Shown: piece by piece, positions 3,893 to 50,139 of the stretch
Layout of the letters: each line of letters begins with the position of its first letter
How positions within the stretch are numbered: the first letter of the stretch is position 1
Origin: an uncultured Pseudomonadales bacterium
GTDB lineage: Bacteria; Pseudomonadota; Gammaproteobacteria; Pseudomonadales; Balneatricaceae
Length of the DNA stretch: 64,000 nt
NCBI GenBank assembly: GCA_943787595.1
Contig: CALSNA010000001.1
Coordinates: 62,001 to 126,000, forward strand
Direction of reading: 5' to 3'
The notes under the pieces: model-generated
Seen by the model: only the letters and a program-made list of their open reading frames with translations
The model's database searches: none
What the model was told of the DNA's origin: nothing
Program-made: the position numbers and the translations under genes

Positions 3893-3924
3893 TCAGGTTC
3901 TGTCAAGGCCGGACTGAAAGATAA

Positions 3925-4470
3925 TTGAGGATTGTCGGTTTAGTGGATACACGTGTGTTATTGGGGCGTATCACCTCAGTATATGGTGTACAAGGCTGGG
4001 TTAAAGTACATTCCAGTACCGAACCCATAGACAATATCTTCAACTACAGGCCCTGGCAGGTGCGTCTTGCTGATCGCTGGCATACCGTTGAGTTGCAGCA
4101 CGGAAAGCGTCATGCTAAGCATAGCAAGATATTGATTGCAAAACTGGCTGGTTGCTATGATCGTGATAAAGCGCGACAGTACTGTGGCGCTGATATTGCA
4201 GTTGACCAATCTCATTTGCCAATACTTGGTCCTGATGACTATTATTGGCAGCAGCTAATTGGTTTGGCGGTTAAAACTACATCGGGTATACAGCTTGGTG
4301 ACGTTGATTACTTGATGACTACTGGAGCCAACGATGTTTTGGTAGTTCAGGGACAAGCTGACAGTATTGATTGCAAACAGCGTCTTATACCTTGGTTGCC
4401 TGGCAAAGTTATTATAAGTACTGATATCACGGCAGGTGTTATTCTAGTTAACTGGGATTCAGAGTTCTAA
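3925..4470 (+). CDS. rimM: Ribosome maturation factor RimM
   Basis: RimM binds S19 and helps mature the 3' domain of 16S rRNA. The N-terminal RimM barrel begins LGRITSVYGVQGWVKV and the PRC-barrel part contains DDYYWQQLIGL and GANDVLVV. The start is uncertain: TTG 3925 gives 181 residues; GTG 3943, with GAGG twelve bases upstream, gives 175. No ATG is available. The stop codon directly abuts the GTG of trmD, so the two are translationally linked. Confidence 0.93.
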   Translation: MRIVGLVDTRVLLGRITSVYGVQGWVKVHSSTEPIDNIFNYRPWQVRLADRWHTVELQHGKRHAKHSKILIAKLAGCYDRDKARQYCGADIAVDQSHLPILGPDDYYWQQLIGLAVKTTSGIQLGDVDYLMTTGANDVLVVQGQADSIDCKQRLIPWLPGKVIISTDITAGVILVNWDSEF

Positions 4471-5645: not shown

Positions 5646-6587
5646 ATGGCCACAAATCTTGATGGCACTGGCAAATTCAAGTCTATATCCAACCAAGACA
5701 TTGACCAGTGCGCTCTAGATGCCTATATTGATGCCCTTTGGCTTGAACGAGGTCTAAGTAACAACACTCGTGATAACTACCGGCGTGATCTACGGCAATT
5801 CGCTGATTGGCAGCTGGGTTATCATCGTTCCCTATTAGGCGCTAAGGTTTCTGATGTGCTGGGTTACTTGGCAGAACGTTCCATGGCTAACCACAAACCT
5901 GCGTCAATTGCACGTAGTTTGTCTGCTTTGAAGGGTTTCTTCCGTTATCACCTACGTGAATCCAATATTGCGCTTGATCCCACCCAACAGATTAAGCCAC
6001 CCAAACTGGGTCGGTCACTGCCTAACTCAATTACTGAAGCTGATGTGGAAATTTTGTTAGCCGCACCAGATGTGGCCACTGATCTGGGTTTGCGTGATCG
6101 TGCCATGCTGGAACTTCTGTATGCTTGTGGCTTAAGGGTCACAGAACTGGTGGAGCTAGAATTAGCTCAGATCAATTTCCCCCAAGGGGTAGTGAAAGTG
6201 ATGGGTAAAGGAAGCAAAGAAAGGCTGGTACCTTTGGGGCAGGTTGCCTTGCTCTGGTTACAGCGATATCTGCATCAGTCCCGGCCACAGTTATTGCAGA
6301 TGGGACTCAGTCAAATCCTATTTCCTAGTACACGGGGGAGGCAGATGTCTCGTCAGACTTTTTGGTATCGTGTTAAGCGACATGCACTGAAGGCTGGTAT
6401 TAAGAAGCCCTTATCTCCTCATGTTTTGCGGCATGCGTTTGCAACTCACTTACTGAATCATGGTGCTGATCTACGTATTATTCAGTTACTGCTTGGACAT
6501 CGTGATTTATCCACTACACAGATATACACTCATGTTGCTACCCAGCGCTTGCAAATGCTGCATCAGTCTCATCACCCCCGCGGATAA
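5646..6587 (+). CDS. xerD: Site-specific tyrosine recombinase XerD
   Basis: With XerC it resolves chromosome dimers at dif at the septum under FtsK control. An N-terminal SAM-like core-binding domain (residues about 20-105) precedes the catalytic domain. All six catalytic residues are visible: Arg164 (CGLRVTEL), Lys188 (MGKGSKER), His259 and Arg262 (SPHVLRHAF), His285 (LGHRDLS) and Tyr294 (TQIYTHVA). ATG 5646 gives 313 residues, about 15 longer at the N-terminus than E. coli XerD. The xerD-dsbC-hom order matches pseudomonads. Confidence 0.95.
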   Translation: MATNLDGTGKFKSISNQDIDQCALDAYIDALWLERGLSNNTRDNYRRDLRQFADWQLGYHRSLLGAKVSDVLGYLAERSMANHKPASIARSLSALKGFFRYHLRESNIALDPTQQIKPPKLGRSLPNSITEADVEILLAAPDVATDLGLRDRAMLELLYACGLRVTELVELELAQINFPQGVVKVMGKGSKERLVPLGQVALLWLQRYLHQSRPQLLQMGLSQILFPSTRGRQMSRQTFWYRVKRHALKAGIKKPLSPHVLRHAFATHLLNHGADLRIIQLLLGHRDLSTTQIYTHVATQRLQMLHQSHHPRG

Positions 6588-6735
6588 AGCTAGATTTAAT
6601 ATATCATTGACCAGATTATTACCTTGCTAGAGTAGATTCATTGCCGCTATGATTAGATTAAGGCTATACCACAATTATAGCTGCAATTTATTGTGTTAAT
6701 TTTGCCACTGTTTTTTTGATAAGTTGAGCATCATA

Positions 6736-7485
6736 ATGACATATTTTACAAGAAAATTTACCTTATTTGTGTTGCTGATTTTAGATTCCAGTCTAGCCTG
6801 TTCTGACGATATGGCAGCCATCAGAGCCAGTTTGATACGTATTGAAGCGGGCCTGACGGCTCAAGAGATAAACTCAACCCCTATGCCAGGCATATACCGA
6901 GTTCAGTTATCACCTACACGAACTATATACATGAGTGCTGACGGCGAGTTTTTTTTTAGCGGCGATATGTATCACAATAGCAACTCTCAGGGACTGCAGA
7001 ACTTAACCCAGTTCGATCAGCAACGAATTCGCAGAGGGCTGTTGGCTACAGTATCTGATAATAGCGGCTGGATGTTTGCGCCAACTGGTAAAACCAAAGC
7101 CGTAATTACTGTTTTTACTGACGTGGATTGCTACTATTGCCAGAAATTACACCAGGAAATCAAGCAGATTAATGACTTGGGTATTGCAGTGCACTATTTG
7201 GCTTTTCCGCGAGCTGGAATTGGCAGTGATGCCTATGCCCAGATTGCTTCAGCCTGGTGTGCTGATGATCGTAATGAAGCCATAACCACTGCTAAAATTA
7301 AAGCTCAGAATGGTGGACTATCTGAAAGCCCTTACTTCGAATGTGATCATCCAGTCACAGAACACTATGAATTAGGTAAAATGATGGGAATTACTGGTAC
7401 ACCAGCCATAGTGACTCAGGCAGGGCTTATGATCCCGGGCTACTTGCCCGCTGCTGCCTTGGCTAAGCGTTTAAATCTGCTCTGA
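6736..7485 (+). CDS. dsbC: Thiol:disulfide interchange protein DsbC
   Basis: Periplasmic disulfide isomerase that reshuffles wrong disulfides and is kept reduced by DsbD. It has a signal peptide (positive start TRK, hydrophobic core about residues 8-20, probable cleavage near SLA/C), an N-terminal dimerisation domain with the GIYRVQLSP stretch, and a C-terminal thioredoxin fold with active site DCYYC and cis-proline motif GTPAIV. Start ATG 6736 was preferred to TTG 6724. A second cysteine pair follows (AWCADD, FECDH), as in E. coli DsbC. 249 residues. Confidence 0.92.
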   Translation: MTYFTRKFTLFVLLILDSSLACSDDMAAIRASLIRIEAGLTAQEINSTPMPGIYRVQLSPTRTIYMSADGEFFFSGDMYHNSNSQGLQNLTQFDQQRIRRGLLATVSDNSGWMFAPTGKTKAVITVFTDVDCYYCQKLHQEIKQINDLGIAVHYLAFPRAGIGSDAYAQIASAWCADDRNEAITTAKIKAQNGGLSESPYFECDHPVTEHYELGKMMGITGTPAIVTQAGLMIPGYLPAAALAKRLNLL

Positions 7486-7492
7486 TCCTAGT

Positions 7493-8272
7493 ATGGAAAG
7501 TGGCTTTTTCTATATTGCTAAGCTGACGTGGCTACTGATCGCGCCAGAAAGCCTGTTGTTGTTTTGGTTATCTTGGTGTTTATTATGTCTGTGCCTTGGA
7601 TCGTTACTTTATGCACGGCGCTTGTTGCTTGGGCTAACATTTACTTGTTTGTTGATTGGTTTTTTTCCAGTTGGAGAGTGGCTGCTGTATCCATTGGAAA
7701 GCCGTTATCAGGCTAATCCACAATTCAATCAAGTGGATGGTATCATTGTGCTTGGTGGTGCAGAAAATGTTCGCCTTGCCAGTATTTGGCAGCAGACATC
7801 GGTGAATGCGGCAGGGGAACGCTTGCTTGCACTGCTCTCTTTGTTGCAGCGTTACCCGCAGTCTAAAGTCATTTTTACTGGGGGTTCTGGCAGTATGACG
7901 GCACAGCATTACAAGTCTGCTGATATGGTGCATGCCATGCTACAACAGTATGATGTATCACTAGAGCAGGTTGCATTTGAGTCGAAATCACGCAATACCC
8001 ATGAAAATGCATTATTTAGCAAAACTTTAATGCAGCCTTCAAAGGATGAAACTTGGTTGCTGGTAACCAGTGCTTGGCATATGCCCAGAGCCATGGCAGT
8101 ATTTTGTCAGGCCGATTGGGCCGTCTTACCTTATCCGGTAGACTTTCGTAGTCTAAGGCACCATTTGCTAAGGTTGGACTGGGGCTTTGCCAAACATTTG
8201 GGTAACCTGAATCAAGCTGTCAAAGAATGGGTGGGCCTTTTAGCGTACCACTGGACTGATAGAAGCTGTTAG
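7493..8272 (+). CDS. YdcF/ElyC-like membrane protein (DUF218)
   Basis: Two N-terminal hydrophobic segments (about residues 6-30 and 40-62) are followed by PLESRY and a DUF218 domain: VDGIIVLGG, KVIFTGGSGS, SKSRNTHENA and LVTSAWHMPRAM. This is the architecture of the ElyC/YdcF family, inner-membrane proteins linked in E. coli to envelope and undecaprenyl-phosphate homeostasis. Which paralogue it matches cannot be decided by eye. It starts seven bases after the dsbC stop and is probably cotranscribed with it. Confidence 0.85.
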   Translation: MESGFFYIAKLTWLLIAPESLLLFWLSWCLLCLCLGSLLYARRLLLGLTFTCLLIGFFPVGEWLLYPLESRYQANPQFNQVDGIIVLGGAENVRLASIWQQTSVNAAGERLLALLSLLQRYPQSKVIFTGGSGSMTAQHYKSADMVHAMLQQYDVSLEQVAFESKSRNTHENALFSKTLMQPSKDETWLLVTSAWHMPRAMAVFCQADWAVLPYPVDFRSLRHHLLRLDWGFAKHLGNLNQAVKEWVGLLAYHWTDRSC

Positions 8273-9738: not shown

Positions 9739-11136
9739 ATGCGTTATATAAGTACTCGAGGTCAAGCTCCAGAGCTGGGTTTTGAAGCAGTATTGCTAAC
9801 TGGTTTGGCCAATGATGGTGGGCTTTATGTCCCCGCCAAACTGCCTGTGTTCAGTGCAGAAGAAATTGCTTCTTGGGCTGGTCTTGGTTATGCCGAGCTA
9901 GCCCAAAAAGTTATTTTACCTTTCGTGGAAAAGGATATCAGTGCTGATGAATTAAAAACCATGATTAATGCTACCTATGATTGCTTCAAACATCCTGCAG
10001 TAGCCCCATTGGTGCAATTGGGTCATAATGAATGGGTCATGGAATTGTTCCATGGCCCAACCCTATCCTTCAAGGATTTTGCGTTACAATTGTTAGGCCG
10101 TTTGGTGGACTATATATTGGCCAAGCGTGATCAGCATCTAGTAATTATGGGTGCCACCTCCGGTGATACCGGTTCGGCAGCCATTGAAGGCTGCCGTCAT
10201 AGTCAGCGGGTTAAACTGTTTATCTTGCATCCCCATGACAGGGTATCTGAAGTTCAACGACGCCAAATGACAACTCTACTGGGTGATAATATCTATAATA
10301 TTGCAGTACGTGGTAACTTTGATGACTGTCAACGCATGGTTAAACAAAGTTTTGCGGATCAATCATTCCTCATGGGCGGTCAACTGGGTGCTGTAAACTC
10401 TATTAATTGGGCCCGCATTATGGCTCAAATCGTCTATTACTTTTATGCAGGCATAGCCCTTGGTAGTCCTCATCGGCCTGTTTCATTCAGCGTCCCAACA
10501 GGAAACTTTGGTGATATATACGCAGGTTACTTGGCTTGCCAGATGGGCCTTCCCATAACACAACTGGTAATAGCTACTAATGCTAACGATATTTTGCATC
10601 GTTGTATCAGTAATAATCAATATGCCAAGCAGGCTCTGGTCAAGACCTATTCCCCCAGTATGGATATTATGGTTTCCAGTAATTTTGAACGTCTGCTATT
10701 TGACCTATATGACCGTGATGGAGCTGCATTATCGCAGTGCATGACCAGACTGAGCAAGGATAAGGTTCATGCTCTTGACCCTAAACGTTGGCACCGTGCA
10801 CGACAGCTTTTCGATAGTTGTCGGGTTAGTGATGTTGAAACCTGTGATATGATCAGGGAGGTGTCACAACAGTACCGCTATTTACTCGATCCTCATAGTG
10901 CCATCGGAGTTAAAGCGGCACGGCAATGCCGACGCAATACCCAGACACCGATGATTACTATGGCTACGGCACATCCAGTAAAATTTCCTGCCGCTGTGGT
11001 AAAATCTGGTTGCCAGCAACCAGCTATGCCTGATCATATGGCTGACTTGTTTGAACAACCCGAGTCCTATCAGGTATTCGATAATGATTTAACAGCAGTA
11101 CAATCTTATATGACAACTAGCGTTAGGTCGCAATAG
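9739..11136 (+). CDS. thrC: Threonine synthase
   Basis: PLP enzyme converting O-phosphohomoserine to threonine. It closely resembles the Pseudomonas enzyme: start MRYISTRGQAPELGFE, PLP lysine in LSFKDFALQLLGR, GATSGDTGSAAIEG and the phosphate loop SVPTGNFGDI. 465 residues, the normal length of the long proteobacterial form. It forms a two-gene operon with hom; no thrB is in this window. Confidence 0.97.
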   Translation: MRYISTRGQAPELGFEAVLLTGLANDGGLYVPAKLPVFSAEEIASWAGLGYAELAQKVILPFVEKDISADELKTMINATYDCFKHPAVAPLVQLGHNEWVMELFHGPTLSFKDFALQLLGRLVDYILAKRDQHLVIMGATSGDTGSAAIEGCRHSQRVKLFILHPHDRVSEVQRRQMTTLLGDNIYNIAVRGNFDDCQRMVKQSFADQSFLMGGQLGAVNSINWARIMAQIVYYFYAGIALGSPHRPVSFSVPTGNFGDIYAGYLACQMGLPITQLVIATNANDILHRCISNNQYAKQALVKTYSPSMDIMVSSNFERLLFDLYDRDGAALSQCMTRLSKDKVHALDPKRWHRARQLFDSCRVSDVETCDMIREVSQQYRYLLDPHSAIGVKAARQCRRNTQTPMITMATAHPVKFPAAVVKSGCQQPAMPDHMADLFEQPESYQVFDNDLTAVQSYMTTSVRSQ

Positions 11137-11657
11137 ATTCATTAAAGCCCACCGATAATCCTCGCAGGTAATGGTAATAACCTTGTGAATTTTGAGCCTG
11201 AGACTCTAACTTACACTGATTTTATTCCAGTATACTATTTTTTTCTAGCGCCTTGGTAGTCAGACTACGGGACGCTACCTTAAGGATTTTCTGCAAATCC
11301 AGAGCCACATGAAAAGTGCACTCTGATGCTGATTCATGTTTGTTTTAATATACTAAACAACGGTTGGTTATCTTGTAATGTCATGCTTTTTTAAGCTGAG
11401 GTATACTTGCTTCATTATTCTTAACATAATTTAAACTGCTATAGTTTAGATCCAGCTCATCTTGAGAAATAAAATGAGGCTTCCAGGGTGATCTTGAAGC
11501 ATATCGCCAGCTAAGTTAAGACAAGGCTAGAAACTGATGAAATACCTTAAAATATTCGTAACTTTTACAGGTAATAAGCTCAACCAAAATATATTGGTGA
11601 TCAATCTAGATTTTGATCCGATGTTAACGCCATAATATGATGACAGGAAAATAGTTT
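11137..11657. other. 521-base spacer between thrC and fumarase, no gene seen
   Basis: No coding frame of meaningful length and no tRNA-like fold. Small palindromes occur, such as GTAGTCAGACTAC at 11266-11278, without terminator or riboswitch character that I can recognise. It probably contains the fumarase promoter. Confidence 0.5.
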
Positions 11658-13160
11658 ATGACAATAATTCGCCAGGACGATCTGATCAATAGTGTTGCTG
11701 ATGCCTTGCAATTCATATCCTATTACCATTCTATTGACTTTATCCAATCGGTTCATCAAGCCTACTTACGTGAGGAATCGCAGGTTGCCCGTGATGCCAT
11801 AGCACAAATTTTGATCAACTCCCGCATGTGCGCTGAAGGTAAGCGGCCTCTGTGTCAGGATACTGGTATTGTTACCGTATTTGTAAAGCTAGGTATGGAG
11901 GTGCTTTGGGATGCAAACATGACTCTGGATGAAATGATTAATGCCGGTGTACGGAGTGCTTATACCCACCCTGACAATCCACTGCGCGCCTCAATTTTAG
12001 CCGATCCTGCTGGATTGCGCAGTAATACAGGTGATAATACTCCTGCGGTTATTCATGTTAGTTTGGTACAAGGCAATACCTTAGAAATTCAAATAGCTGC
12101 CAAGGGAGGGGGATCGGAAAATAAATCCAAGCTGGTTATGCTAAACCCTTCTGATAGCATAGTCGACTGGGTTGTGAAGACTGTTCCCATGATGGGAGCA
12201 GGTTGGTGTCCACCAGGAGTGCTCGGCTTGGGTATTGGGGGCACTGCTGAAAAGGCAGCTGTATTGGCCAAATCAGCATTGATGGACCCTATTGATATCC
12301 ATGAGCTACAAACCCGTGGGCCAGATAACAGGCTGGAAGAACTTCGCTTGGAATTGTTTACTGCTGTCAATGGTTTAGGCATTGGTGCCCAAGGGCTAGG
12401 TGGCTTGACTACAGTACTCGATGTTAAGATCAAAGACTATCCTACTCATGCAGCATCTTTGCCTGTATGTATGATTCCCAATTGTGCAGCTACCCGGCAT
12501 GCTCATTTTGTACTTGATGGTTCAGGTCCTGCCCTGCAAACACCGCCTAGTCTGAAACATTACCCACAAGTTACTTGGCAAGCAGGTACTGGTGCTCGCC
12601 GGGTTAATCTGAATGAGATATCTACAACTGATGTTCGGCATTGGCAGCCTGGTGAAACTTTACTGCTATCCGGCAAGATGTTGACTGGACGTGATGCTGC
12701 TCATAAACGTATGGTGGAATTGCTTGATCAGGGTGAAACTCTACCAGTAGACTTGAAGGGGCGCTTTATTTACTACGTTGGTCCAGTGAATCCGGTAGCT
12801 GATGAAGTGGTAGGACCTGCTGGCCCCACTACATCCACCCGAATGGATAAATTCACCACTACTATGCTTGCTAAAACTGGCCTGCTGGGGATGATTGGTA
12901 AGGCAGAACGAGGTCAGGTTGCAATTGATGCTATCAAGGCACACCAAGCGGTTTATCTGATTGCGGTCGGAGGTGCAGCTTACCTTGTTTCTAAAGCCAT
13001 CAAGCAAGCTAGGGTACTGGCATTTGCTGAGTTGGGCATGGAGGCCATCTATGAATTTGAAGTAGTAGATATGCCAGTTACTGTTGCTGTTGACTCATCA
13101 GGTAGCTCTGTACATCAGACTGGTCCAGCCAAATGGTACCAAATTATCCACAGTCAGTAA
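11658..13160 (+). CDS. Class I (iron-sulfur) fumarate hydratase
   Basis: Hydrates fumarate to malate in the TCA cycle using an oxygen-sensitive [4Fe-4S] cluster. The fused alpha+beta layout of class I enzymes is clear: an N-terminal part with PLCQDTGIVTVFVK and GAGWCPPGVLGLGIGG, a cysteine in VCMIPNCAATRH, and a C-terminal swivelling part with YYVGPVNPVADEVVGPAGPTT and KAERGQ. Three cluster cysteines can be placed. The 500-residue length fits the Pseudomonas-type enzyme. L-tartrate dehydratase is the related alternative, but the single-chain form favours fumarase. Confidence 0.92.
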   Translation: MTIIRQDDLINSVADALQFISYYHSIDFIQSVHQAYLREESQVARDAIAQILINSRMCAEGKRPLCQDTGIVTVFVKLGMEVLWDANMTLDEMINAGVRSAYTHPDNPLRASILADPAGLRSNTGDNTPAVIHVSLVQGNTLEIQIAAKGGGSENKSKLVMLNPSDSIVDWVVKTVPMMGAGWCPPGVLGLGIGGTAEKAAVLAKSALMDPIDIHELQTRGPDNRLEELRLELFTAVNGLGIGAQGLGGLTTVLDVKIKDYPTHAASLPVCMIPNCAATRHAHFVLDGSGPALQTPPSLKHYPQVTWQAGTGARRVNLNEISTTDVRHWQPGETLLLSGKMLTGRDAAHKRMVELLDQGETLPVDLKGRFIYYVGPVNPVADEVVGPAGPTTSTRMDKFTTTMLAKTGLLGMIGKAERGQVAIDAIKAHQAVYLIAVGGAAYLVSKAIKQARVLAFAELGMEAIYEFEVVDMPVTVAVDSSGSSVHQTGPAKWYQIIHSQ

Positions 13161-13352
13161 GGACATCAGCAGTAAATAACTGACTCGATTGACTTTACCT
13201 GTTATCAGAAATTTACGCCAGAAATGTCCTATACGTGCTGACATGCGTCATGATGCTTGGACCGCATAATTTATCGTAGAGCCTGCTTGACCTTTCGTTC
13301 ACGCCTGTACAGTTATGGGCGTCACTTGTAATCTAATTTAGACTTGGCTTAG

Positions 13353-13860
13353 CTAATTTGATTCGATGCATTCAAACCCAGACGTTTCATCTGGCTCAAA
13401 GCGTGTATTGCGTAAGATCTGTTTGACTTTCCGTAGGTGAGCATGGAAATCTTTGCGACGCCTTAGGATAACTCCAGTAGCTAAAACATCCAATAGGGTC
13501 AACTGCACTAAACGTGACTGCATAGGCATATAGATATTGGTATCTTCCGGCGCATTGACAGCCAAGGTCATGCTGGCAATGTGTGTCAGAGGCAAATCAG
13601 CTTTAGTAATGGCAATGGTTACAACACCTGCTTGGCGAGCAATCTGGGTTACCTCTACAGTCGCTCGAGTAAGGCCGGTAAATGACAACAGGACCATCAC
13701 ATCGCCCCGGCGGCAGGTTGATGCCACCATCCTTTGTATAAGAAAATCATCGTGGGAACTGACAGTTATATTAAAGCGAAAAACTTATGTTGTGCATCTT
13801 TGGCAACTGCACCAGATGCACCCATTCCGAAAAAATAAATCTGCTGAGCTTGGCTAAAGT
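13353..13860 (-). pseudogene. hexR: Broken HexR-type (RpiR family) regulator remnant
   Basis: On the minus strand the DNA encodes the SIS sugar-phosphate-binding half of HexR, the repressor of glucose catabolism genes: [19 protein letters not shown] (near 13785-13845), then a one-base loss near 13777 shifts frame, and the match resumes with MVASTCRRGDVMVLLSFTG and PEDTNIYMPMQSRLVQLT. The N-terminal helix-turn-helix half (about 130 residues) is absent; a stop lies directly upstream of the first recognisable residues. The gene cannot make a functional repressor. Confidence 0.85.
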
Positions 13861-13972
13861 AATCCTAGTGTACGCCACATGCATAAGAAGCGCATTAATA
13901 AGGTTAGGTTTTATTGTTGATTGATGTTAGCTGGTCTATAGTTGAAAGAACCATTGAAACAGAATATTTTAA

Positions 13973-14006
13973 TTGTCATATTCTTGTCATATTTAAATAT
14001 TATATT
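13973..14006 (+). promoter_or_regulatory. Pho box and -10 element of the pst promoter
   Basis: TTGTCATATTCTTGTCAT (13973-13990) is a direct repeat of TTGTCAT with 11-base periodicity, matching the PhoB consensus CTGTCATA-AWA-CTGTCAY closely. A TATATT -10 candidate lies ten bases further (14001-14006). PhoB boxes replace the -35 element in such promoters. The pstS ATG is about 50 bases downstream and phoB-phoR are in the same cluster, giving an autoregulated phosphate-starvation module. Confidence 0.85.
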
Positions 14007-14056
14007 ATCCTTTTGTTAAAACCATTCAATCTTTAGTAATTACATAGGAGTTACTG

Positions 14057-15046
14057 ATGAAAAGGACAAAATTAATGTCTGCTGTTATGCCAGCCCTGGC
14101 TTTGACGATTGCCAGTTTAGCTGCTTGCGTTCAGGCAACTGACTCACTGGATAACAACCTAGCTACATATCAAAAATCCAGTGGTGTTTCTGGCAACATT
14201 TCCAGTGTTGGATCTGATACCCTAGCTAACCTTATGACCCTTTGGGCAGAAGAGTTTAAGCGCTACTACCCTAATGTGAATATCCAGATTCAGGCAGCTG
14301 GCTCTTCTACTGCACCACCTGCCCTGACAGAGGGGACTTCCAACTTGGGCCCTATGAGTCGCAAGATGAAAGATAAGGAGCTCGAAGCCTTTGAAAAGCG
14401 ATTTGGTTACAAGCCTACAGCCATTCCAGTGGCCATTGATGCCTTGGCTGTCTATGTACACAAAGATAATCCAGTTCCGGGTATGAGTATTGCTGATTTG
14501 GATGCAATATTTTCCTTAACACGCAAATGTGGTGGTGAACAAGATATCACCAAATGGGGTGATTTGGGTGTTGGCGGTAGTTTGGGTAAAAAAACCATAC
14601 AACTGTATGGTCGTAACTCCGTTTCTGGAACCTATGGTTATTTCAAGCAGCGGGCGTTGTGCAAAGGGGATTATCGTAGTAACGTTAATGAGCAGCCAGG
14701 TTCTGCTTCAGTAGTTCAGTCTGTCAGTACTTCCGTCAATGGCATTGGTTATTCTGGTATCGGTTACAGGACTTCTAGTGTGCGTGCTTTACCACTGGCT
14801 AAAAAGTCTGGTGAAATCTTTATCGAAGCCAATGCTGTCAATGCCGTGACTGGTGCTTATCCCCTATCTCGATTCTTGTATGTTTACATAAATAAGGCTC
14901 CCAATAAGGATTTAGCCCCACTAGAGCGTGAATTTGTAAAACTAATCATGTCCATGGAAGGTCAGCAGGTTGTAGTTAAAGATGGCTATATTCCACTGCC
15001 AGCTAAAGTAGCTGAAACGCAATTTAAGGCACTGGGTATAAATTAA
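14057..15046 (+). CDS. pstS: Phosphate-binding protein PstS
   Basis: High-affinity phosphate receptor feeding the PstCAB importer. Phosphate-binding motifs are [27 protein letters not shown] and [13 protein letters not shown]. The signal peptide (KRTK, hydrophobic core to residue 20) ends in a lipobox-like LAAC at residues 21-24, so it could be a lipoprotein; cleavage at VQA/T is the non-lipidated alternative. TAGGAG six bases before ATG 14057. It is the first gene behind the Pho box and is followed by a candidate terminator that would let it outproduce the permease genes. Confidence 0.95.
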
Positions 15047-42287: not shown

Positions 42288-43640
42288 ATGGCGCTAAACG
42301 TAATTATCTTGGCTGCTGGTCAAGGCAGTCGTATGAACTCCCAAAAGGCTAAGGTGCTTCACTTATTGGCTGGAAAGCCTATGCTTTTGCATGTTGTTGA
42401 TTCGGCTTTACAACTGAATCCAGAAGCATTACATGTTGTTGTTGGCCATCAGAAAGAGCAAGTACAGCAGAGCCTACGGCACTTTCCAGTTAACTGCATC
42501 TCCCAAGATCAGCAGTTAGGCACTGGTCATGCTGTTGCCCAGGCTTTGCCTCATATTGATGACCAATCTGTCGTTTTGGTACTGTATGGTGATGTTCCTT
42601 TGGTGCCAGTGCAGATCTTACAAAAACTAGTTTCATGTGTATCTGACCAACAAATAGGCCTCCTTACCGTGGAGTTGCGTGATCCTTCTGGATACGGACG
42701 TATACTGCGTAATACTAGTGGTATGGTGAAGGCTATTGTTGAGCATCGGGACGCTTCTGCCGAACAACAAGCGATCCATGAAGTTAATACAGGTATTATG
42801 GCCATCAAAGCACATTGTCTGCATTCCTGGTTACCATTGCTCAGTGCCAAAAATGCTCAGCAGGAACTTTATCTGACTGACATTATTGCCAGTGCTGTTG
42901 CTAACCAGATTAGTATAGCTACTATATCTCCTCAGCTTGAACAGCAGGTAAAAGGGGTTAATGATCTGGTACAGCTGGCTCAATTAGAGCGTTGGTATCA
43001 GTTGCAGCAAGCACATCAGTTTATGCAGCAGGGTTTGCAATTAGCTGATCCAGAGCGTTTTGATTTGCGTGGCGAATTGATATTAGGACGTGACATTAGC
43101 ATTGATATTAATGTGGTCTTAGAAGGTCATATCTCCTTGGCAGACGGTGTTATTATTGGTCCTAACTGCAGCTTGAAGAATGTGCGAATTGGTTCTGGGG
43201 TTAAAATCAAAGCCAATAGTGTGCTGGAGGATGCTGAGGTAGGTGATAGTTGTGAAATAGGTCCCTTTGCTCGCCTGCGACCCGGTACTAAAATGGCTGC
43301 TGGTGCTAAAATAGGTAATTTTGTAGAGACTAAACAGTCTAATATTGGTACTGGAGCTAAAGTTAACCATTTTACTTATTTAGGCGACTGCCAAGTAGGC
43401 CAACACAGTAATGTTGGTGCAGGCACCATTACCTGTAACTATGATGGTGCTCAAAAACATACGACTATCATAGAAGAAAACGTGTTTGTAGGATCTAATA
43501 CTGCACTGGTAGCTCCGGTAAGAGTTGGTTCTGGTGCTACTATAGGTGCTGGGTCTACTGTAACTAAAGATGTTCCTGCAGATCACCTAGCTATAGGTCG
43601 TGGGCGCCAAGTTAATATCGGTCATTGGAAAAAAAAATAG
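42288..43640 (+). CDS. glmU: Bifunctional GlmU: glucosamine-1-phosphate acetyltransferase / UDP-GlcNAc pyrophosphorylase
   Basis: Makes UDP-GlcNAc for peptidoglycan and lipopolysaccharide. The N-terminal uridylyltransferase domain (about 1-228) has LAAGQGSRMNSQKAKVLH and QLGTGHAVAQALP; the C-terminal left-handed beta-helix (about 250-450) has RLRPGTKMAAGAKIGNFVET and the acetyltransferase region GAGTITCNYDGAQKH. 450 residues (E. coli 456). A small hairpin (42251-42274) lies just before its weak ribosome site. glmS follows, the conserved pairing. Confidence 0.97.
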   Translation: MALNVIILAAGQGSRMNSQKAKVLHLLAGKPMLLHVVDSALQLNPEALHVVVGHQKEQVQQSLRHFPVNCISQDQQLGTGHAVAQALPHIDDQSVVLVLYGDVPLVPVQILQKLVSCVSDQQIGLLTVELRDPSGYGRILRNTSGMVKAIVEHRDASAEQQAIHEVNTGIMAIKAHCLHSWLPLLSAKNAQQELYLTDIIASAVANQISIATISPQLEQQVKGVNDLVQLAQLERWYQLQQAHQFMQQGLQLADPERFDLRGELILGRDISIDINVVLEGHISLADGVIIGPNCSLKNVRIGSGVKIKANSVLEDAEVGDSCEIGPFARLRPGTKMAAGAKIGNFVETKQSNIGTGAKVNHFTYLGDCQVGQHSNVGAGTITCNYDGAQKHTTIIEENVFVGSNTALVAPVRVGSGATIGAGSTVTKDVPADHLAIGRGRQVNIGHWKKK

Positions 43641-43810
43641 TAATTGTATAAGCCACTATTAGTTAATAATAACTAAACTGCTAATTGCATCAACTTTGAC
43701 GTTCTTTTACATCCACTGCAATATCAGTAAAATAAATTTACATAGAGTTGAAAATTTTTTTTAGATCTTCATTATCAAAATAAACTTCTGCTTAATTACA
43801 GAGACAATGT

Positions 43811-45640
43811 ATGTGTGGAATAATGGGAGCCACTGCCCAAAGAAATATTACTCCAATTTTGCTTGAGGGGCTGGAGCGATTGGAATACCGTGGATATGAT
43901 TCTGCTGGGCTAACTGTATTGGTTGATGGGCAGCTGAAGTGTTTGCGTCGAACTGGTAAAGTAGCCCAGTTAAAGCAACTTTTAAAGCAAAATCCTGTTG
44001 CTGGTAATCTGGGTATAGCGCATACTCGTTGGGCCACTCACGGGGTACCTACTGTAACTAATGCGCATCCACACCAATCTCATCAGCGCATTGCATTAGT
44101 GCATAATGGTATCATTGATAACTACGAAGCGATTAGAACTGAACTAACTAGCAAAGGCTATGTCTTTGCTAGCCAGACCGATACCGAAGTTATTGTTCAC
44201 CTGATTCATTCCTATTGTGCCAGAGGTCTTGATCTAGTTTCAGCAGTAATCCGAGCTACTAAACGCTTTACCGGCGCTTACGCTATTGGGGTAATTGATC
44301 TACAGCAGCCAAATCGTTTGGTGGCTGCTCGTATGGGGAGCCCTCTGGTAGTAGGAATTGGTAGTGGAGAAAGTTACATTGCTTCCGACCAGCTGGCACT
44401 GTTGCAGGTGACTGACCAGTTTATGTTCTTGCAGGATGGTGATGTTGCTGACTTGTCCCTAGATGACGTTACTGTGCTAGATCGAGCTGGTCAAATTGTT
44501 CAGCGTACTGTGAGCAGATTTGAATACAGCAACGAAAGTGCTGATAAAGGGTACTATAAACATTACATGCTCAAGGAAATTGATGAGCAACCAGTGGTTA
44601 TTGCCAATGGATTGGGCCAATATCTAACGGATTGGGATACCTTAGAAACATTATTTTCTAAGAATGCACATAACCGTTTGATGGCAGCCAAGCGGGTTCA
44701 GATAGTTGCTTGTGGTACTAGTTATCATGCTGGACTAGTTGCGCGTTACTGGATTGAATCTTTATCTGGATTACCTTGTCAGGTTGAATGTGCTAGCGAA
44801 TTTCGTTATCGACAACCGGTGTTGTTATCAGATACCTTGCTGATTCTTTTGTCTCAGTCTGGTGAAACAGCTGATGTATTAGCAGCTCTGCGCCATATCG
44901 ATACAGATTATTTAGTGGCCAGTCTAGCCATTTGCAATGTGCCCAGCAGCAGTTTGGTACGAGAATCAGATTTATCACTTCTAACCCGGGCGGGTCCAGA
45001 AATCGGGGTTGCTTCAACCAAAGCATTCACCACCCAGCTCGTTGCCTTACTAATATTAACTTTGGTTTTAGCAAGAACTCGCCAGAGCTTGCCAAAACCT
45101 GAATGCCGGATGTTGGTACAGCTTGCAAAATTACCCGATCTATTACAACAAGTATTGCAACTTAAGGATGTGATTGAGACTTTGGCTGGACATTTTGCCA
45201 ATAAGCACCATGCTTTATTTTTGGGTCGAGGAAGTCTCTATCCCATTGCTCTGGAAGGCGCCTTAAAGCTGAAGGAAATTTCTTATATCCATGCTGAAGC
45301 TTACCCCGCTGGTGAACTTAAACACGGCCCTCTAGCTTTAGTTGACCGACATATGCCAGTGGTGGCAGTGGTGCCAGATAATTCATTGCTAGAAAAACTA
45401 AAAGCTAACTTACATGAAGTTAGAGCTCGAGGTGGAGAACTATTTTTATTTGTTGACCAGTTAGTTAATATACCTACCGATGAAGCTGTTCATATCGTTC
45501 GCCTTCCAAGAGTCGATCCACTTCTGGCGCCCATATTATATACTTTGCCTTTACAACTATTAGCTTATCATGTCGCGGTGATTAAAGGGACTGATGTTGA
45601 TCAGCCCCGTAATCTGGCTAAATCTGTCACAGTGGAGTAG
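43811..45640 (+). CDS. glmS: Glutamine--fructose-6-phosphate aminotransferase GlmS
   Basis: Makes glucosamine-6-phosphate, the entry to amino sugars. The N-terminal glutaminase domain starts MCGIMGATAQRN, so Cys2 is the catalytic nucleophile after Met removal; HTRWATHGVPT and the GLD-type region follow. Two SIS isomerase domains (about 285-600) carry CGTSYHAGLVA, LSQSGETADV and HAEAYPAGELKHGPLAL. 609 residues, as in E. coli. It ends in LAKSVTVE. Confidence 0.97.
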   Translation: MCGIMGATAQRNITPILLEGLERLEYRGYDSAGLTVLVDGQLKCLRRTGKVAQLKQLLKQNPVAGNLGIAHTRWATHGVPTVTNAHPHQSHQRIALVHNGIIDNYEAIRTELTSKGYVFASQTDTEVIVHLIHSYCARGLDLVSAVIRATKRFTGAYAIGVIDLQQPNRLVAARMGSPLVVGIGSGESYIASDQLALLQVTDQFMFLQDGDVADLSLDDVTVLDRAGQIVQRTVSRFEYSNESADKGYYKHYMLKEIDEQPVVIANGLGQYLTDWDTLETLFSKNAHNRLMAAKRVQIVACGTSYHAGLVARYWIESLSGLPCQVECASEFRYRQPVLLSDTLLILLSQSGETADVLAALRHIDTDYLVASLAICNVPSSSLVRESDLSLLTRAGPEIGVASTKAFTTQLVALLILTLVLARTRQSLPKPECRMLVQLAKLPDLLQQVLQLKDVIETLAGHFANKHHALFLGRGSLYPIALEGALKLKEISYIHAEAYPAGELKHGPLALVDRHMPVVAVVPDNSLLEKLKANLHEVRARGGELFLFVDQLVNIPTDEAVHIVRLPRVDPLLAPILYTLPLQLLAYHVAVIKGTDVDQPRNLAKSVTVE

Positions 45641-45693
45641 TTCAGAAGAGTGTACAAACTGGTGGTGGTTTCTCTCAGTACCTATGTTTTCAT

Positions 45694-45948
45694 ATGACAA
45701 TTGGGTCTAATGATTTTTGTGCAGAACAGCAATACACTGAACAACAGCAACGCAATCACGATCTCATAAAGTCACTGCACGATAGTGGAATGGGATATTG
45801 GAGGATTGCAGATTATCTTAATGAACAGAGCATCAAGATTGTCAGAGGAAACGCTTGGAAGAACACCCAAGTGCTCTCTGTTCTTAAGAAATATCGCGAG
45901 AGATTAGACAGAATAAAGAATATTCGTCAATTCAATCATGGCGTTTAA
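45694..45948 (+). CDS. Small helix-turn-helix-like protein (paralogue 1 of 3)
   Basis: 84 residues of unknown function. The middle, SGMGYWRIADYLNEQSIKIV, then WKNTQVLSVLKKYRERLD, resembles the winged-helix part of serine recombinases (Recombinase domain) but there is no catalytic domain. It shares most of this core with the proteins at 48299 (plus) and 48056 (minus). No clear ribosome site at ATG 45694. It lies 50 bases after glmS at the edge of an accessory patch. A DNA-binding role is inference. Confidence 0.65.
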   Translation: MTIGSNDFCAEQQYTEQQQRNHDLIKSLHDSGMGYWRIADYLNEQSIKIVRGNAWKNTQVLSVLKKYRERLDRIKNIRQFNHGV

Positions 45949-46000
45949 ATAAGTAAATTCAAACTTCAATGGATAAAGGATTAGGTACAGGAAAGTGCAA

Positions 46001-46282
46001 TCAAACCCCACTCAGTTTTAAGGGGGGGGGGGGGGGGAAATATCTCATTAGGTACTTGCATTCTTTATAGATATATAAAATATTTTTCAGTTTTGGGGGG
46101 TACTTATTTTTTTTACTCTTCCAAGTTCCACCGTATTGGTAAGTATCCTCGTACTTTGATTTAATCCTTGCCAGACACTTTCCACACAAGAACACCCAAT
46201 CCTTCAAGTCTTTGTATCTACATCTGTAGAGAACTTCTTTTGCGTCCTTACAGATATCACAGTCTTTGATTCTAACTCTCAA
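46001..46282 (-). CDS. Small four-cysteine protein with a C-terminal proline tract
   Basis: 93 residues. Two CXXC pairs, CDICKD (residues 8-11) and CGKC (33-36), are spaced like a zinc ribbon, with YRCRYKDLKDWVFL between and EDTYQYGGTWKSKK after. I recall similar small proteins in marine bacteria but cannot name a family. The last 30 codons look unlike the rest and include five prolines read from the 16-G tract, so the native end may have been nearer residue 60. Its ATG at 46282 overlaps the end of the upstream gene by four bases. Confidence 0.6.
   Translation of the reverse strand: MRVRIKDCDICKDAKEVLYRCRYKDLKDWVFLCGKCLARIKSKYEDTYQYGGTWKSKKNKYPPKLKNILYIYKECKYLMRYFPPPPPLKLSGV
46022..46037. 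repeat. Homopolymer of 16 G
   Basis: Sixteen consecutive G on the plus strand, read as a poly-C/proline tract in the minus-strand gene above. Tracts of this length slip during replication in bacteria. The count itself may be wrong, since sequencers also misread such runs. Confidence 0.9.
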
Positions 46283-46590
46283 TTTTTTCTAAATGCCAAA
46301 TGATCAACAAAAAAATTATTGTATGCTTGGATTCTAATTTTTACTGTTGAACTAATAGGAGATAAGCAATCAATTATTAGTGTTTCTGATTTCATGACTT
46401 GTCCAACACTTGCTGGTGAAGTTCTTGTTGAGATATCTTCTAAAAAACTATCGATTGTTTCTACAAAAATATTTCCATTATCGGCATCAAAAAGACTAGA
46501 TTCAAGGTGAAATACCTCTTTCAATTTAGATACACCGCACTCGGGAATACCTTCAAAATACAAATGAACTGCTTCTAGTAAATCTTTCAT
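46279..46590 (-). CDS. NTF2-like / putative lumazine-binding protein, probably truncated
   Basis: 103 residues: LEAVHLYFEGIPECGVSKLK, FHLESSLF, TIDSFLEDI and VKIRIQAYNNFFVDHLAF match the cone-shaped NTF2 fold of the lumazine-binding-like family (usually 120-130 residues). The frame stops right after VDHLAFRKN where relatives continue with a final strand (typically W-I-N-K), so the 3' end is probably lost. The downstream four-cysteine gene begins at this break. Function of the family is unclear. Confidence 0.6.
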   Translation of the reverse strand: MKDLLEAVHLYFEGIPECGVSKLKEVFHLESSLFDADNGNIFVETIDSFLEDISTRTSPASVGQVMKSETLIIDCLSPISSTVKIRIQAYNNFFVDHLAFRKN

Positions 46591-46788
46591 TTTCTATTCT
46601 CAGTAAACTCAGATTCTTTGTTCAAAAGTTTCATACGTGGGTTTTTTAATCAGGAAAGCAAAAATTGAATGTTTGTTATCTTTAGTTTGGTCAGATTTAA
46701 TCTATATTTTGATAATATTTATTTATGAAAAAAATAACTCTCACCATTGTAAATACCCCATTCTTAACACAGCCACCTCGTAGACAGT

Positions 46789-47604
46789 TTAAGCTGCATT
46801 CCTATACTCAGTGGGCGTCATATCATTGAGCGAGTCATGCGGCCTTTGGGTGTTATAAATTTCAATCCATTCGTCCGTTATCTGCTTAACCTCCTGTAGG
46901 TTTTTAAACCAATATAAGTCCAATACTTCATGCCTATATGTACGATTAAAACGCTCTATATAGCCGTTTTGATACGGGCAACCAGGCTTGATATAGTCAA
47001 TTCTGATACTGTGAGCTAGAGCCCAATCGGTAAACACGCTTGACGTGAATTCACTGCCGTTATCAACCCGAATCTTCTCTGGATAACCATGCCATTCGCC
47101 CAACCTGTCTAAATAACGTATAACACGCAACGATGGAATGCTGGTGGCTATATCAATGCCTAATAGCTGGCGGTTAAAGTCATCGATGATGTTAAATGTT
47201 CTATAACGCACCTTGTTATGCAGCTGGTCACTCATAAAGTCCATTGACCATGTGTGCCCTTGATGATTTGGCACCGTTAATGGTTCGGGGTTTCTTGGCG
47301 GTAACCTTCGTTTGGATTTGCGCCTAAGGTTGAGCTTTAACTCCGTGTACACGCGATATACGCGCTTATGGTTCCAGTGATAGCCTAGCTTACGCAGCCG
47401 CTTAAAACACTTAGGAAAGCCCCACCTCTGGTGTTTTTCCACCAAGTCATTCAGTGCATCGATAATGGCACTATCATCTGTCAGCGTTGGCTGATAATAA
47501 AACGCCGTTCGGCTTATAGAAACGACTTTACAGCTCATTGTTACACCGATTTGGTGTGTGGCCTGTAACTCCTGAGCCCAGACTTTGCGCTCTGCCACAG
47601 GCAC
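46789..47604 (-). CDS. IS3-family transposase OrfB (DDE catalytic part)
   Basis: 271 residues. HTH_21 region at the N-terminus, then an rve integrase core with all catalytic residues: Asp in TWSMDFMSD, Asp in RVDNGSEFTS and Glu in NGYIERFNRTYRHEVLD, 35 residues after the second Asp as expected. GTG 47604 overlaps the OrfA stop by one base; the main product is probably the OrfAB fusion made by frameshifting. Confidence 0.93.
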   Translation of the reverse strand: MPVAERKVWAQELQATHQIGVTMSCKVVSISRTAFYYQPTLTDDSAIIDALNDLVEKHQRWGFPKCFKRLRKLGYHWNHKRVYRVYTELKLNLRRKSKRRLPPRNPEPLTVPNHQGHTWSMDFMSDQLHNKVRYRTFNIIDDFNRQLLGIDIATSIPSLRVIRYLDRLGEWHGYPEKIRVDNGSEFTSSVFTDWALAHSIRIDYIKPGCPYQNGYIERFNRTYRHEVLDLYWFKNLQEVKQITDEWIEIYNTQRPHDSLNDMTPTEYRNAA

Positions 47605-47864
47605 TACAGCTTTTTTATGATTTCTTCCTGTAGCTGAGATTTAAGACTTAAGTCAGCGTACATTTGCTTAAGCCTACGGTTCTCTTCTTCAAGCTCTTTT
47701 AAGCGTTTAACATCAGAGGCTTCCATGCCGCCATACTTTTCTCGCCATTTGTAAACAGTTGAATTGGCTACGCTATATTTACGGCAGATATCTTTTATTG
47801 CCATACCAGCGTCAGCTTCTTTCAAAATTGCCACTATTTGGCTTTCGGTCATGCGTTTGCTCAT
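47604..47864 (-). CDS. IS3-family transposase OrfA
   Basis: 86 residues. An HTH_Tnp_1 helix-turn-helix (ESQIVAILKEADAGMAIKDI, then YSVANSTVYKWREKYGG) and a C-terminal leucine-zipper (LKELEEENRRLKQMYADL) used for binding the IS ends and for oligomerisation. Confidence 0.93.
   Translation of the reverse strand: MSKRMTESQIVAILKEADAGMAIKDICRKYSVANSTVYKWREKYGGMEASDVKRLKELEEENRRLKQMYADLSLKSQLQEEIIKKL
47610..47616 (-). promoter_or_regulatory. Programmed -1 frameshift heptamer A-AAA-AAG
   Basis: On the minus strand the OrfA frame reads ATA AAA AAG CTG TAG. The heptamer is in the correct phase, and a -1 slip continues as GCT GTA GTG CCT GTG, joining the OrfB frame. This is the standard way IS3 elements produce the active OrfAB transposase. 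Confidence 0.85.
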
Positions 47865-48055
47865 CGTAAAACTGCTCTGGGATATCTTATAAAAAATTCT
47901 ACGAGTGATGTGTATTAGTTTAGGGGATAGTTACAACATGACTTTCTCATAGAAAACTCCTTTCGTTCATTTTAGTGGAATTTTCTACTTATAACTGCTC
48001 CGAATTTTTGAGGGGATCACAAATGAAAATGTGAAGAAAATCATTTGATTAAATC

Positions 48056-48283
48056 TTACCGTGCCAATCTCTTTTTAATGATTGAATGAACGTGTGCACC
48101 TCTAAAATGTTTGCCTCGCAAAGTAAGGCATCCGTTTTTGTTCAACCACTCAGTAATAGCGTCAAAGGTCATACCTTGCTCCCGTCGCTCAGAAATGGTC
48201 TGATAGACAAATAACTGGTAATCAGAATACTGACTTCCTGTCAGTACAGGAGTCCGATAAGTAATAGTGGAGTTAAATGTCAT
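48056..48283 (-). CDS. Small helix-turn-helix-like protein (paralogue 2 of 3)
   Basis: 75 residues from ATG 48283. The core QGMTFDAITEWLNKNGCLTL, then GKHFRGAHVHSIIKKRLAR follows the same pattern as the proteins at 45694 and 48299 (glycine, I--L-N--G--T--G, V-S--K) but is the most divergent. It stops 34 bases from the IS end. Read divergently from paralogue 3, with about 16 bases between starts. No clear ribosome site. Function unknown. Confidence 0.55.
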   Translation of the reverse strand: MTFNSTITYRTPVLTGSQYSDYQLFVYQTISERREQGMTFDAITEWLNKNGCLTLRGKHFRGAHVHSIIKKRLAR

Positions 48284-48298
48284 TTTGGACAATACTTT

Positions 48299-48580
48299 TT
48301 GGAAGGAGATTATTCAAGCTATCTGTTTTATGAAGTTTCAAAGAGGTTCAACAACCTTCTTCCAGAACAAAACCCAACACGATACTCACAAAAACAATTA
48401 GATATTTTCAGACTTGTCCCATCATTCCATAAGGATGGATTGGGTTATAGAAGAATTGCGAAGGTATTAAATGACAAAGGTTTGACCACCGAAGAAGGTC
48501 ACCCTTGGAAGAATACAAATGTCTATTCAGTTTTAAAGAGGTATTCAGAACGACAAGAAAGCCTGAAATTCAGAAGGTAG
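48299..48580 (+). CDS. Small helix-turn-helix-like protein (paralogue 3 of 3)
   Basis: Up to 93 residues. The core DGLGYRRIAKVLNDKGLTTE, then WKNTNVYSVLKRYSERQESL, is very close to paralogue 1. The start is unclear: the first possible codon is TTG 48299, AAGGAG lies at 48303-48308, and no in-frame ATG or GTG follows at a useful distance, so the 5' end may be damaged. Ends 13 bases from the dnaB stop, facing it. Function unknown. Confidence 0.55.
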   Translation: MEGDYSSYLFYEVSKRFNNLLPEQNPTRYSQKQLDIFRLVPSFHKDGLGYRRIAKVLNDKGLTTEEGHPWKNTNVYSVLKRYSERQESLKFRR

Positions 48581-48593
48581 CTGTGCAATTTTA

Positions 48594-49988
48594 CTAATCT
48601 GGTCTTCTGTAATCTTCATAATGGTGCAATAAATCTTCAAATCGGGTGTATTTTCCAATGAAAGCCAGGTTTATTGTGCCTATAGGACCGTTACGCTGTT
48701 TGCCAATAATAATTTCTGCTTTCCCTCGATCAGGGCTATCTTCGTTGTAGACTTCATCTCGATAGATAAACATAATTACATCTGCGTCTTGCTCAATAGC
48801 TCCAGATTCTCTCAAATCAGAGTTAACGGGCCGTTTATTAGGCCGGTTCTCCAGACTACGGTTTAATTGTGATAGTGCCAAAATCGGGCATTGCATCTCT
48901 TTGGCAAGCGCTTTGAGAGAGCGAGAAATTTCAGAAATTTCAGCCGTTCGGCCATCATTATGTCCCTGGATCTGCATTAATTGCAGATAATCAATCATAA
49001 TTAGCCCAAGCTTGCCATGTTCACGAACAATACGCCGTGCTCGTGATCTTATACTCGCAGGGCTCAGAGCAGGTGTATCATCAATGAACAAAGGTTTGTC
49101 ATGCAATAGATTAAATGCACCATTTAGATTAGTCCAGTCTTCTTGTTCGAGCTTGCCAGTGCGCACACGAGTTTGATCAATCCGGCCAAGAGATGATAGC
49201 ATTCGCATCATTAATTGCTCTGCTGGCATTTCCATACTGAAAACAAGGACAGGAGCCTGCCCCATAACGGCTGCGTTTTCTACAATATTCATAGCAAAAG
49301 CAGTTTTCCCCATGGACGGGCGACCTGCAATGATAATCAGATCAGATGACTGTAGTCCGGAAGTTTTTTTATCTAGGTCTTTAAAGTTTGTAGTTAGTCC
49401 GGTTAGATCACTTTTAGACTTAGATAATTCATCAATCCGATCCATGGTTTTGGATAAGATTGGCGTAATTAACTGCGGTTCACTCTCTTGGGTGCGGACA
49501 TCAGCAATCTGAAATACCATGCGTTCCGCTTCATCCAGAATTTCCGCGGAGCTACGACCGCCAGTATGAAAAGCTGAGTCAGAAATTTTGTCGGCAACGG
49601 TAATTAATTGTCGTAACAACGCCCGTTCACGCACAATGCTGGCATAGGCTGTGATATTACTAGCACTGGGAGTATTTTTTGCCAATTCAGTCAAGTAAAC
49701 TAGACCACCGGCATGTTCCAGTTTGTCCAAGCGGCTTAATTCTTCCGACAAGGTAATAACATCTAGTGGTTGGCTGTGCCCCGCCAGTTTTTGCATAACC
49801 CGAAAGATTAATCGGTGATCTGAACGATAAAAATCCACTTCAGCAGCGACTTCAGCTACTCTATCCCATGCATCATTATCTAGCATTAAACCACCCAGAA
49901 CTGATTGTTCAGCTTCCTGGGAGTGTGGTGGGACCTTAAGTATTTCTAAATCAGGGTCTTGTGTTAATAATTTAGTTGATTCAATCAT
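48594..49988 (-). CDS. dnaB: Replicative DNA helicase DnaB
   Basis: Hexameric 5'-3' helicase at the replication fork. N-terminal primase-interacting domain (PPHSQEAEQSVLGGLML, HRLIFRVMQKLA), linker, and RecA-like C-terminal domain with Walker A GRPSMGKTAFA, IDYLQLMQIQG, LSQLNRSLENR and LRESGAIEQDAD. 464 residues, no intein. Downstream of rplI as in many gammaproteobacteria, but separated from it by a strong terminator. Confidence 0.97.
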   Translation of the reverse strand: MIESTKLLTQDPDLEILKVPPHSQEAEQSVLGGLMLDNDAWDRVAEVAAEVDFYRSDHRLIFRVMQKLAGHSQPLDVITLSEELSRLDKLEHAGGLVYLTELAKNTPSASNITAYASIVRERALLRQLITVADKISDSAFHTGGRSSAEILDEAERMVFQIADVRTQESEPQLITPILSKTMDRIDELSKSKSDLTGLTTNFKDLDKKTSGLQSSDLIIIAGRPSMGKTAFAMNIVENAAVMGQAPVLVFSMEMPAEQLMMRMLSSLGRIDQTRVRTGKLEQEDWTNLNGAFNLLHDKPLFIDDTPALSPASIRSRARRIVREHGKLGLIMIDYLQLMQIQGHNDGRTAEISEISRSLKALAKEMQCPILALSQLNRSLENRPNKRPVNSDLRESGAIEQDADVIMFIYRDEVYNEDSPDRGKAEIIIGKQRNGPIGTINLAFIGKYTRFEDLLHHYEDYRRPD

Positions 49989-50139
49989 GACTAAGGTTCA
50001 TATAACCCATAACTATCTTGATTATTTGGTTAAATTCTAGTGATTTTGCTTACTGATAGCGCCTGATTTTATCATTTCGGTTCATGACTTGGCGTCAGCG
50101 TGTTATTGCTTATTTTAGATAATACTGCGAACAATACAA

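Follow-up and report, generated by a model that had tools for sequence, protein, structure and literature searches.

Three small helix-turn-helix genes between glmS and dnaB as probable end genes of a glmS-anchored cassette array

What are three related small helix-turn-helix proteins doing between glmS and dnaB? They lie in a 64,000-nucleotide stretch of an uncultured Pseudomonadales bacterium (contig CALSNA010000001.1, positions 62,001 to 126,000; hereafter the window), where their reading frames, called w1, w2 and w3 here, flank an IS3-family element. An earlier note, made from the sequence alone, had suggested stand-alone DNA-binding proteins, remains of a recombinase family or a small mobile gene family. 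Our analysis indicates that w1–w3 are probably the end genes of two cassettes in a mobile array anchored at glmS, apparently moved by a serine recombinase. The features on which this reading depends are, in window coordinates:

43811-45640, + strand: glmS, whose last codons (..SVTVE*) are the insertion site
45629-45640, + strand: attachment (att) core ACAGTGGAGTAG, placed by a core pattern scan and the dyad centre of other cassettes
45629-45630, + strand: predicted crossover dinucleotide AC, placed from the core pattern and the dyad centre of other cassettes
45637-45662, + strand: left attachment arm of cassette 1, GTAGTTCAGAAGAGTGTACAAACTGG, resembling GTAGTTCGGAAGAGTGCTCAAATTGA in the large serine recombinase unit of L029/L075
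45694-45948, + strand: w1, copy 1 of the L-type end protein, 84 amino acids, matched by PF07508 and the family profile
48056-48292, − strand: w2, an inward-facing R-type end protein truncated at its C-terminus, 78 amino acids, matched by PF07508 and the R alignment
48299-48580, + strand: w3, copy 2 of the L-type end protein, 93 amino acids, matched by PF07508 and first gene of the second cassette

The three proteins are related to one another, as the note had claimed. Identity between w1 and w3 is 42% over 73 residues (E=5e-19) and between w2 and w1 28% over 54 residues (E=5e-7); w2 against w3 is not significant as a pair (E=0.07), and the family profile unites all three at E=1e-25 to 5e-31. 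Their likeness to the DNA-binding end of serine recombinases was borne out as well, since w1, w2 and w3 match the N-terminal half of PF07508 (E=7e-4, 2e-5 and 2e-5, the w1 match falling under the curated cut-off) and are the only proteins to do so in the 2.28 Mb genome. None of them has a match to the resolvase catalytic domain (PF00239), and no family of known role was hit, which agrees with the suggestion of a stand-alone recombinase-type DNA-binding domain.

The idea of a small mobile gene family also stands, with relatives found in cassette arrays of 19 other genomes. A scan of 84,980 species genomes, with a profile built from a three-sequence alignment, gave 20 loci, mostly in single-cell genomes of SAR116/Rhodospirillaceae and in marine gammaproteobacteria; the 19 genomes besides the window's are SAR116/Rhodospirillaceae alphaproteobacteria and several gammaproteobacteria. 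The array begins directly after glmS in 17 of the 20 family-bearing genomes, and in the remaining three glmS is outside the stretch examined. A whole-genome search found relatives in two other gammaproteobacteria, both directly behind glmS and on its strand, and a Methylococcaceae genome likewise has one behind glmS. Three SAR116 genomes have the same flanking genes and different array content at this place. The three are not an isolated trio: elsewhere the relatives stand in tandem arrays. A protein search with w3 across 36 relatives found no homologue. One alphaproteobacterial genome (G795) has 14 family matches on three contigs (L071, L073 and L074), and the L074 contig shows a piece of array.

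The arrays have a common boundary. Every boundary bears a copy of the last glmS codons, ACNGTNGARTAR. In 263 kb of array loci, 56 copies of it were counted on the glmS strand, some of these being glmS ends themselves, and not once on the opposite strand, against 2.2 expected per strand from first-order Markov sequences. The tandem cassettes therefore share one orientation, with the cores all on the glmS strand. The 37 cassettes between consecutive cores measure 602 to 9622 bp (median 1256). When cassettes from different contexts are compared, identity jumps from background to 18–20 of 20 bases exactly at the core (L032/L035, L077/L081 and L022/L079), and at right ends it drops again beyond the core. 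A module of ∼365 bp, comprising the core and the L gene, is often common to cassettes with differing cargo. As read from these sequences, a cassette runs from just after the AC of one glmS-end copy to the next copy. The boundary implies that the cassette supplies the bases following AC and restores with them the final GlmS residues Val-Glu and the stop codon. Some right ends carry a longer glmS-tail-like sequence (..DQPRKLAKSLTVE*) instead of an inverted arm, as if attB-like (L077:9930, 13433 and 14227; L081:7787; L073:2989; L024:4812). On the reverse strand of L073, a LAGLIDADG-like homing-endonuclease open reading frame (ORF; 3001-4365) has last codons (..NTLTVE*) that form the att core.

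The ends of a cassette are also related to each other as inverted arms. A 20-base window at the left end was compared with the reverse complement of the right end, with a threshold of at least 15/20. This was reached at offset 10 in 17 of the 37 cassettes, and in none at each of 20 other offsets; with shuffled right-end partners the mean was 1.6 cassettes and the maximum 5 (500 shuffles). The arms vary among cassettes, yet the two ends of one cassette share the same arm. The matching offset of 10 places the dyad centre between the A and the C of the core. Serine-recombinase att sites have this shape, a dyad around a central dinucleotide. Dyad symmetry of att sites has been called characteristic of serine recombinases (PMC6222049).

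All recombinases observed next to the arrays are of the serine type. A large serine recombinase (LSR) is found near one end in four units, accompanied in all four by L and a small serine resolvase:

4428-14050 of L075: LSR unit with arms GTTCGGAAGAGTG at both ends
4718-12188 of L082: LSR unit, with the LSR gene at 10394-12145
L015: LSR unit on a contig from a viral collection
G221: LSR unit split by an insertion sequence

The LSR profile is matched in 5 of the 20 family-bearing genomes and in none of 369 genomes of the class. In L015 it is the LSR end, and not the L end, that adjoins glmS. The arms of L082, which has the LSR, are similar to those of L081 6205-6807, which lacks it, and this similarity fits movement in trans. 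In the integrated L075 unit the LSR stops within the core (TGA); in an excised circle its frame (12315-14057) would cross AC in frame into L (4428), producing an LSR–L fusion. The same unit contains, at 5676-8231, a series of MORN-repeat genes whose internal repeats are highly similar. LSR scans of viral contigs gave no unit beyond those known, and the R-type end pattern had no match in viral contigs. A phage or plasmid origin of the trio was considered and rejected: a phage tblastn search returned nothing beyond ordinary serine integrases, from phages of streptococci and Marinitoga (34–39% over the helix-turn-helix), w2 had no phage match, and in plasmids w3 had none and the G221 relative matched only a Cyanobacterium recombinase at E=3e-3.

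The proteins at the cassette ends fall into two types. L genes (the w1 and w3 type) begin at the left end and R genes (the w2 type) at the right end, and both are read inward. A full-length L or R protein has ∼100 residues, beginning with a strand (YLCFxVSxRTN), which is followed by the PF07508-like helices, then by one long helix and a final strand. All 30 L/R proteins match PF07508, in the first half of the profile only, and PF00239 has no match among these 30 family members. The predicted fold is beta-helices-beta (pLDDT 86), and in VIA-align its helices lie on LSR recombinase domains (9y66, Z 7.1; Bxb1 9iu9, Z 6.0 over 77 residues); a sequence search of the PDB gave no credible relative. 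Among the 37 cassettes, those without LSR contain L only (21), R only (8), both (1) or neither (5), and two are L-plus-LSR units. The dN/dS of L and R is mostly 0.04–0.3, which argues that they evolve as proteins and are not relics; the note's suggestion of recombinase remains, if taken to mean dead pieces, is not supported, since relatives elsewhere are ∼100-residue proteins under purifying selection that have N- and C-terminal strands of their own. Selection could act in unsampled autonomous units, so that dN/dS does not prove use within LSR-less cassettes.

How L is translated is a separate puzzle. L is read in the −1 frame with respect to glmS, and the two overlap at the glmS stop as RTAG, an arrangement comparable to the ATGA of coupled genes, but without the ATG. 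Because the 5' region of L is also the arm, part of its conservation may be at the DNA level. A −1 ribosomal frameshift from glmS is not favoured, as no conserved slippery heptamer was seen and glmS does not precede the internal L genes. Supply of a start codon by excision, fusing L to an upstream ORF, was rejected as a general rule, as the circle provides a start in only a minority of 24 cassettes; the in-frame joining holds for one LSR unit (L075). Our guess is non-standard or coupled initiation. In L013 (genome G144), next to glmS, a type I restriction-modification operon directly follows an L gene with an in-frame TGA.

What lies between the end genes is best regarded as cargo. The 117 cargo proteins include MORN-repeat, DsrE, HIT, DUF805, Sel1, TPR and HNH-endonuclease proteins, DNA methylases and a McrBC component; the PADLOC matches listed were methyltransferases, and GST-like, LAGLIDADG-like and GIY-YIG-like proteins were recognised by eye. 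The cargo thus looks diverse, as in integrons. It also passes between hosts. L077, from an alphaproteobacterium, and L034, from a gammaproteobacterium, have a whole cassette with its cargo in common (86.5% over 720 bp), and a GIY-YIG-like cargo gene is common to G795 and G221 (89%). The w3 protein itself is 87% identical to one in SAR116 (L032), with dN/dS 0.13, and lateral transfer is therefore most likely.

The remaining features of the window can now be placed:

46001-46282, − strand: ORF for a four-cysteine small protein (cargo), with a relative in the L022 array
46279-46590, − strand: NTF2-like / Lumazine_bd_2 protein (cargo), PF12893 E=4e-11
46789-47864, − strand: IS3-family element (NF033516 E=3e-69; rve/HTH_Tnp_1)
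46789-47604, − strand: IS3 orfB
47604-47864, − strand: IS3 orfA
48594-49988, − strand: dnaB, right neighbour of w3

The note had joined the four-cysteine and NTF2-like genes with the three proteins in one cassette; both genes are best read as cargo, not as belonging to a three-protein machine. The four-cysteine gene is 59% identical over 58 residues to a gene in the L022 array. A run of ∼18 G (46021-46038) lies in the C-terminal part of its ORF (PPPPP), and the length of this run could stem from an error in assembly or mark a slippery tract. The IS3 element is a later insertion unrelated to the cassettes, and its ends could not be clearly resolved. The order, as we read it from the sequence, is glmS, core, L1 (w1), cargo, IS3, R1 (w2), a deleted core, L2 remnant (w3) and dnaB, that is, a decayed array. 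We read it as decayed because all three genes have a nonsense codon or truncation and the right att site is lost. In w1, TAA at 45946-45948 breaks the family C-terminus, and ISKFKLQWIKD continues in frame to 45981. In w3 the C-terminal strand is gone at the junction with dnaB, and its DNA match to other copies begins within the gene, with the core absent there. The core between R1 and L2 is missing, leaving only the left boundary at the glmS end. The places of the three ORFs given in the note hold; the N-termini do not, since conservation in w1 begins upstream of its ATG (FSQYLCF...), close to the glmS stop, in a frame open from 45622 in which the family motif YLCF precedes the ATG. The profile search found no LSR in the window's genome, and mobility of the window's own copy is now unlikely. 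Of 23 relatives compared in search of an empty site, 22 have glmS; the 1.5 kb flanks showed no dnaB in any relative, so that the pairing glmS–dnaB is not ancestral, and the comparison yielded no clean empty site. The note had not recognised that the boundaries consist of glmS codons, that the cassettes stand in tandem and have dyad-symmetric arms, or that an LSR is associated with them.

These results suggest a mechanism. The LSR would recombine a circular cassette, with attP in the form arm-AC-arm, with the conserved glmS end as attB, and repeated insertion would build tandem arrays, as in SCC/ECC elements or integrons. The LSR of autonomous units would act in trans on LSR-less cassettes. L and R would be cassette-encoded accessory proteins, whose recombinase-type helix-turn-helix binds the arms beside the crossover and helps or gates the LSR. 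This accessory role, proposed from the domain type, the position and the constant presence in LSR units, is quite possible, and we put it forward tentatively.

Several observations weigh against the glmS-anchored array and its mechanism. The case for serine chemistry is made from sequence, by the dyad centre and the LSR association. No LSR of this family was found in 15 of the 20 genomes, many of which are incomplete single-cell assemblies. Matching arms are absent from 20 of the 37 cassettes, and many cassettes are therefore chimeric or use other ends; five cassettes lack both L and R. In VIA-align, unrelated helix-turn-helix proteins match the structure as well as LSRs do, so that the fold alone is no proof of function. 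In ∼18 of 25 L genes there is no ATG, GTG or TTG between the core and the conserved motif, which leaves their translation unexplained. Within window positions 43000-50000 the core pattern scan finds a single core, at the glmS end, and a right arm, second core and R-type end were sought in the window with mismatches and not found. Finally, new insertion at a site which is already half cassette (attL) is not explained by classic LSR rules.

Other roles for L and R can be weighed against the same data. The strongest competitor has them as transcriptional regulators or autoregulators of their own cassettes, which bind the arm as an overlapping promoter or 5' end and take no part in recombination. 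A helix-turn-helix without a catalytic part and an arm at the gene's 5' end would suit such a role; an inverted copy of the arm is, however, also kept at the far, non-coding end, and L is present in all four LSR units, which makes regulation alone unlikely. Rather less probable is that they are exclusion or decoy factors, where a resident protein occupies the site and blocks or redirects LSR insertion, so protecting glmS and the resident cassette. The first L lies directly behind glmS on the same strand and could be co-transcribed when the site is occupied, but the many successive cassettes per array imply weak exclusion, and the R genes point the other way. That L and R are inert leftovers of serine recombinases, with the DNA repeats a by-product of homologous recombination at glmS, seems improbable in general: the window copies are truncated and pseudogenes are common in distal cassettes, but for the family this is opposed by purifying selection, a shared complete fold, a dyad at a single offset and a boundary that falls exactly at the core. 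The description may fit the copies in the window.

Tn7 inserts beyond the glmS stop, leaving glmS unchanged. Tn7-like transposition into attTn7 is thus scarcely credible here, even though the target gene region is identical, given that insertion lies inside the last codons, which are duplicated at every boundary, and that the units carry serine recombinases; no TnsABCD family is among the 25 of 80 Pfam families listed for the 117 cargo proteins, in which no dedicated search was made.

We return to the glmS-anchored array and compare it with known systems. SCC and Enterococcus cassette chromosome (ECC) elements insert at the 3' end of a conserved gene which is kept intact, with direct repeats at the boundaries, dyad-symmetric att sites, composite tandem elements and an LSR in autonomous units (PMC6222049). 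The glmS arrays similarly insert at a conserved gene's 3' end and duplicate that end at the boundaries, they have a dyad-symmetric att site in 17/37 cassettes (though not in the window, where the right arm is lost), and an LSR is found within the element, but in four units only (L015, L075, L082 and G221). SCC/ECC elements have the large serine recombinases CcrAB and lie at the 3' end of rlmH; the glmS arrays differ in their target gene and in having a single LSR per unit, with no ccrA/ccrB at rlmH. SCC/ECC elements are also tens of kb long, whereas the glmS cassettes are mostly 0.6–2 kb, mostly lack a recombinase, occur in Proteobacteria and have a stand-alone recombinase-type helix-turn-helix gene at one end.

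The resemblance to integrons lies in tandem arrays at a single locus, whose short cassettes all point the same way, hold one or two genes apiece and have diverse cargo, in the absence of the recombinase from the cassette, and in gene exchange between unrelated hosts. Integrons use a folded attC and a tyrosine integrase; here there are double-strand dyad arms centred on AC, variable in sequence and of the serine type (no IntI/attC search was made), and the platform site is formed by the end of an essential gene's coding sequence. Bxb1-type LSRs share the PF07508 DNA-binding part matched by all L/R proteins. Unlike these recombinases, L and R lack the resolvase domain, the zinc ribbon and the coiled coil, and they have strands of their own at the N- and C-termini. 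As in Tn7, the most conserved end of glmS serves as a target of wide host range; in contrast to Tn7, the site is within codons, is restored by the cassette and is used by different machinery.

The closest kinds are thus SCC/ECC and integrons, and the glmS arrays stand a fair chance of deserving a class of their own. Neither for glmS nor for SAR116 did we find cassettes or islands of a serine recombinase described in the open-access papers searched. A bolder and more tentative proposal, which we regard as possible, is a counterpart of the integron that works with a serine recombinase: the 3' end of any proteobacterial glmS would be the acceptor, the LSR would act in trans, recombinase-free cassettes of 0.6–2 kb would supply the last GlmS codons and stop, and their own arm-binding L/R would set specificity or direction. 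The proposal may extend to an unusual mode of translation for L, with no standard start codon and a −1 frame that overlaps the stop of glmS.

The arrays point to a second, independent route to gene-cassette arrays in bacteria. Nearly all bacteria have glmS, an essential and conserved gene whose end is the acceptor, so the cassettes can cross classes. Such arrays would account for the variability of the spot behind glmS in SAR116 and other abundant bacteria of the ocean, offer new serine integrases with a near-universal coding sequence as attB, and suggest a role that can be tested for a family of unannotated proteins otherwise visible only as a weak PF07508 match.

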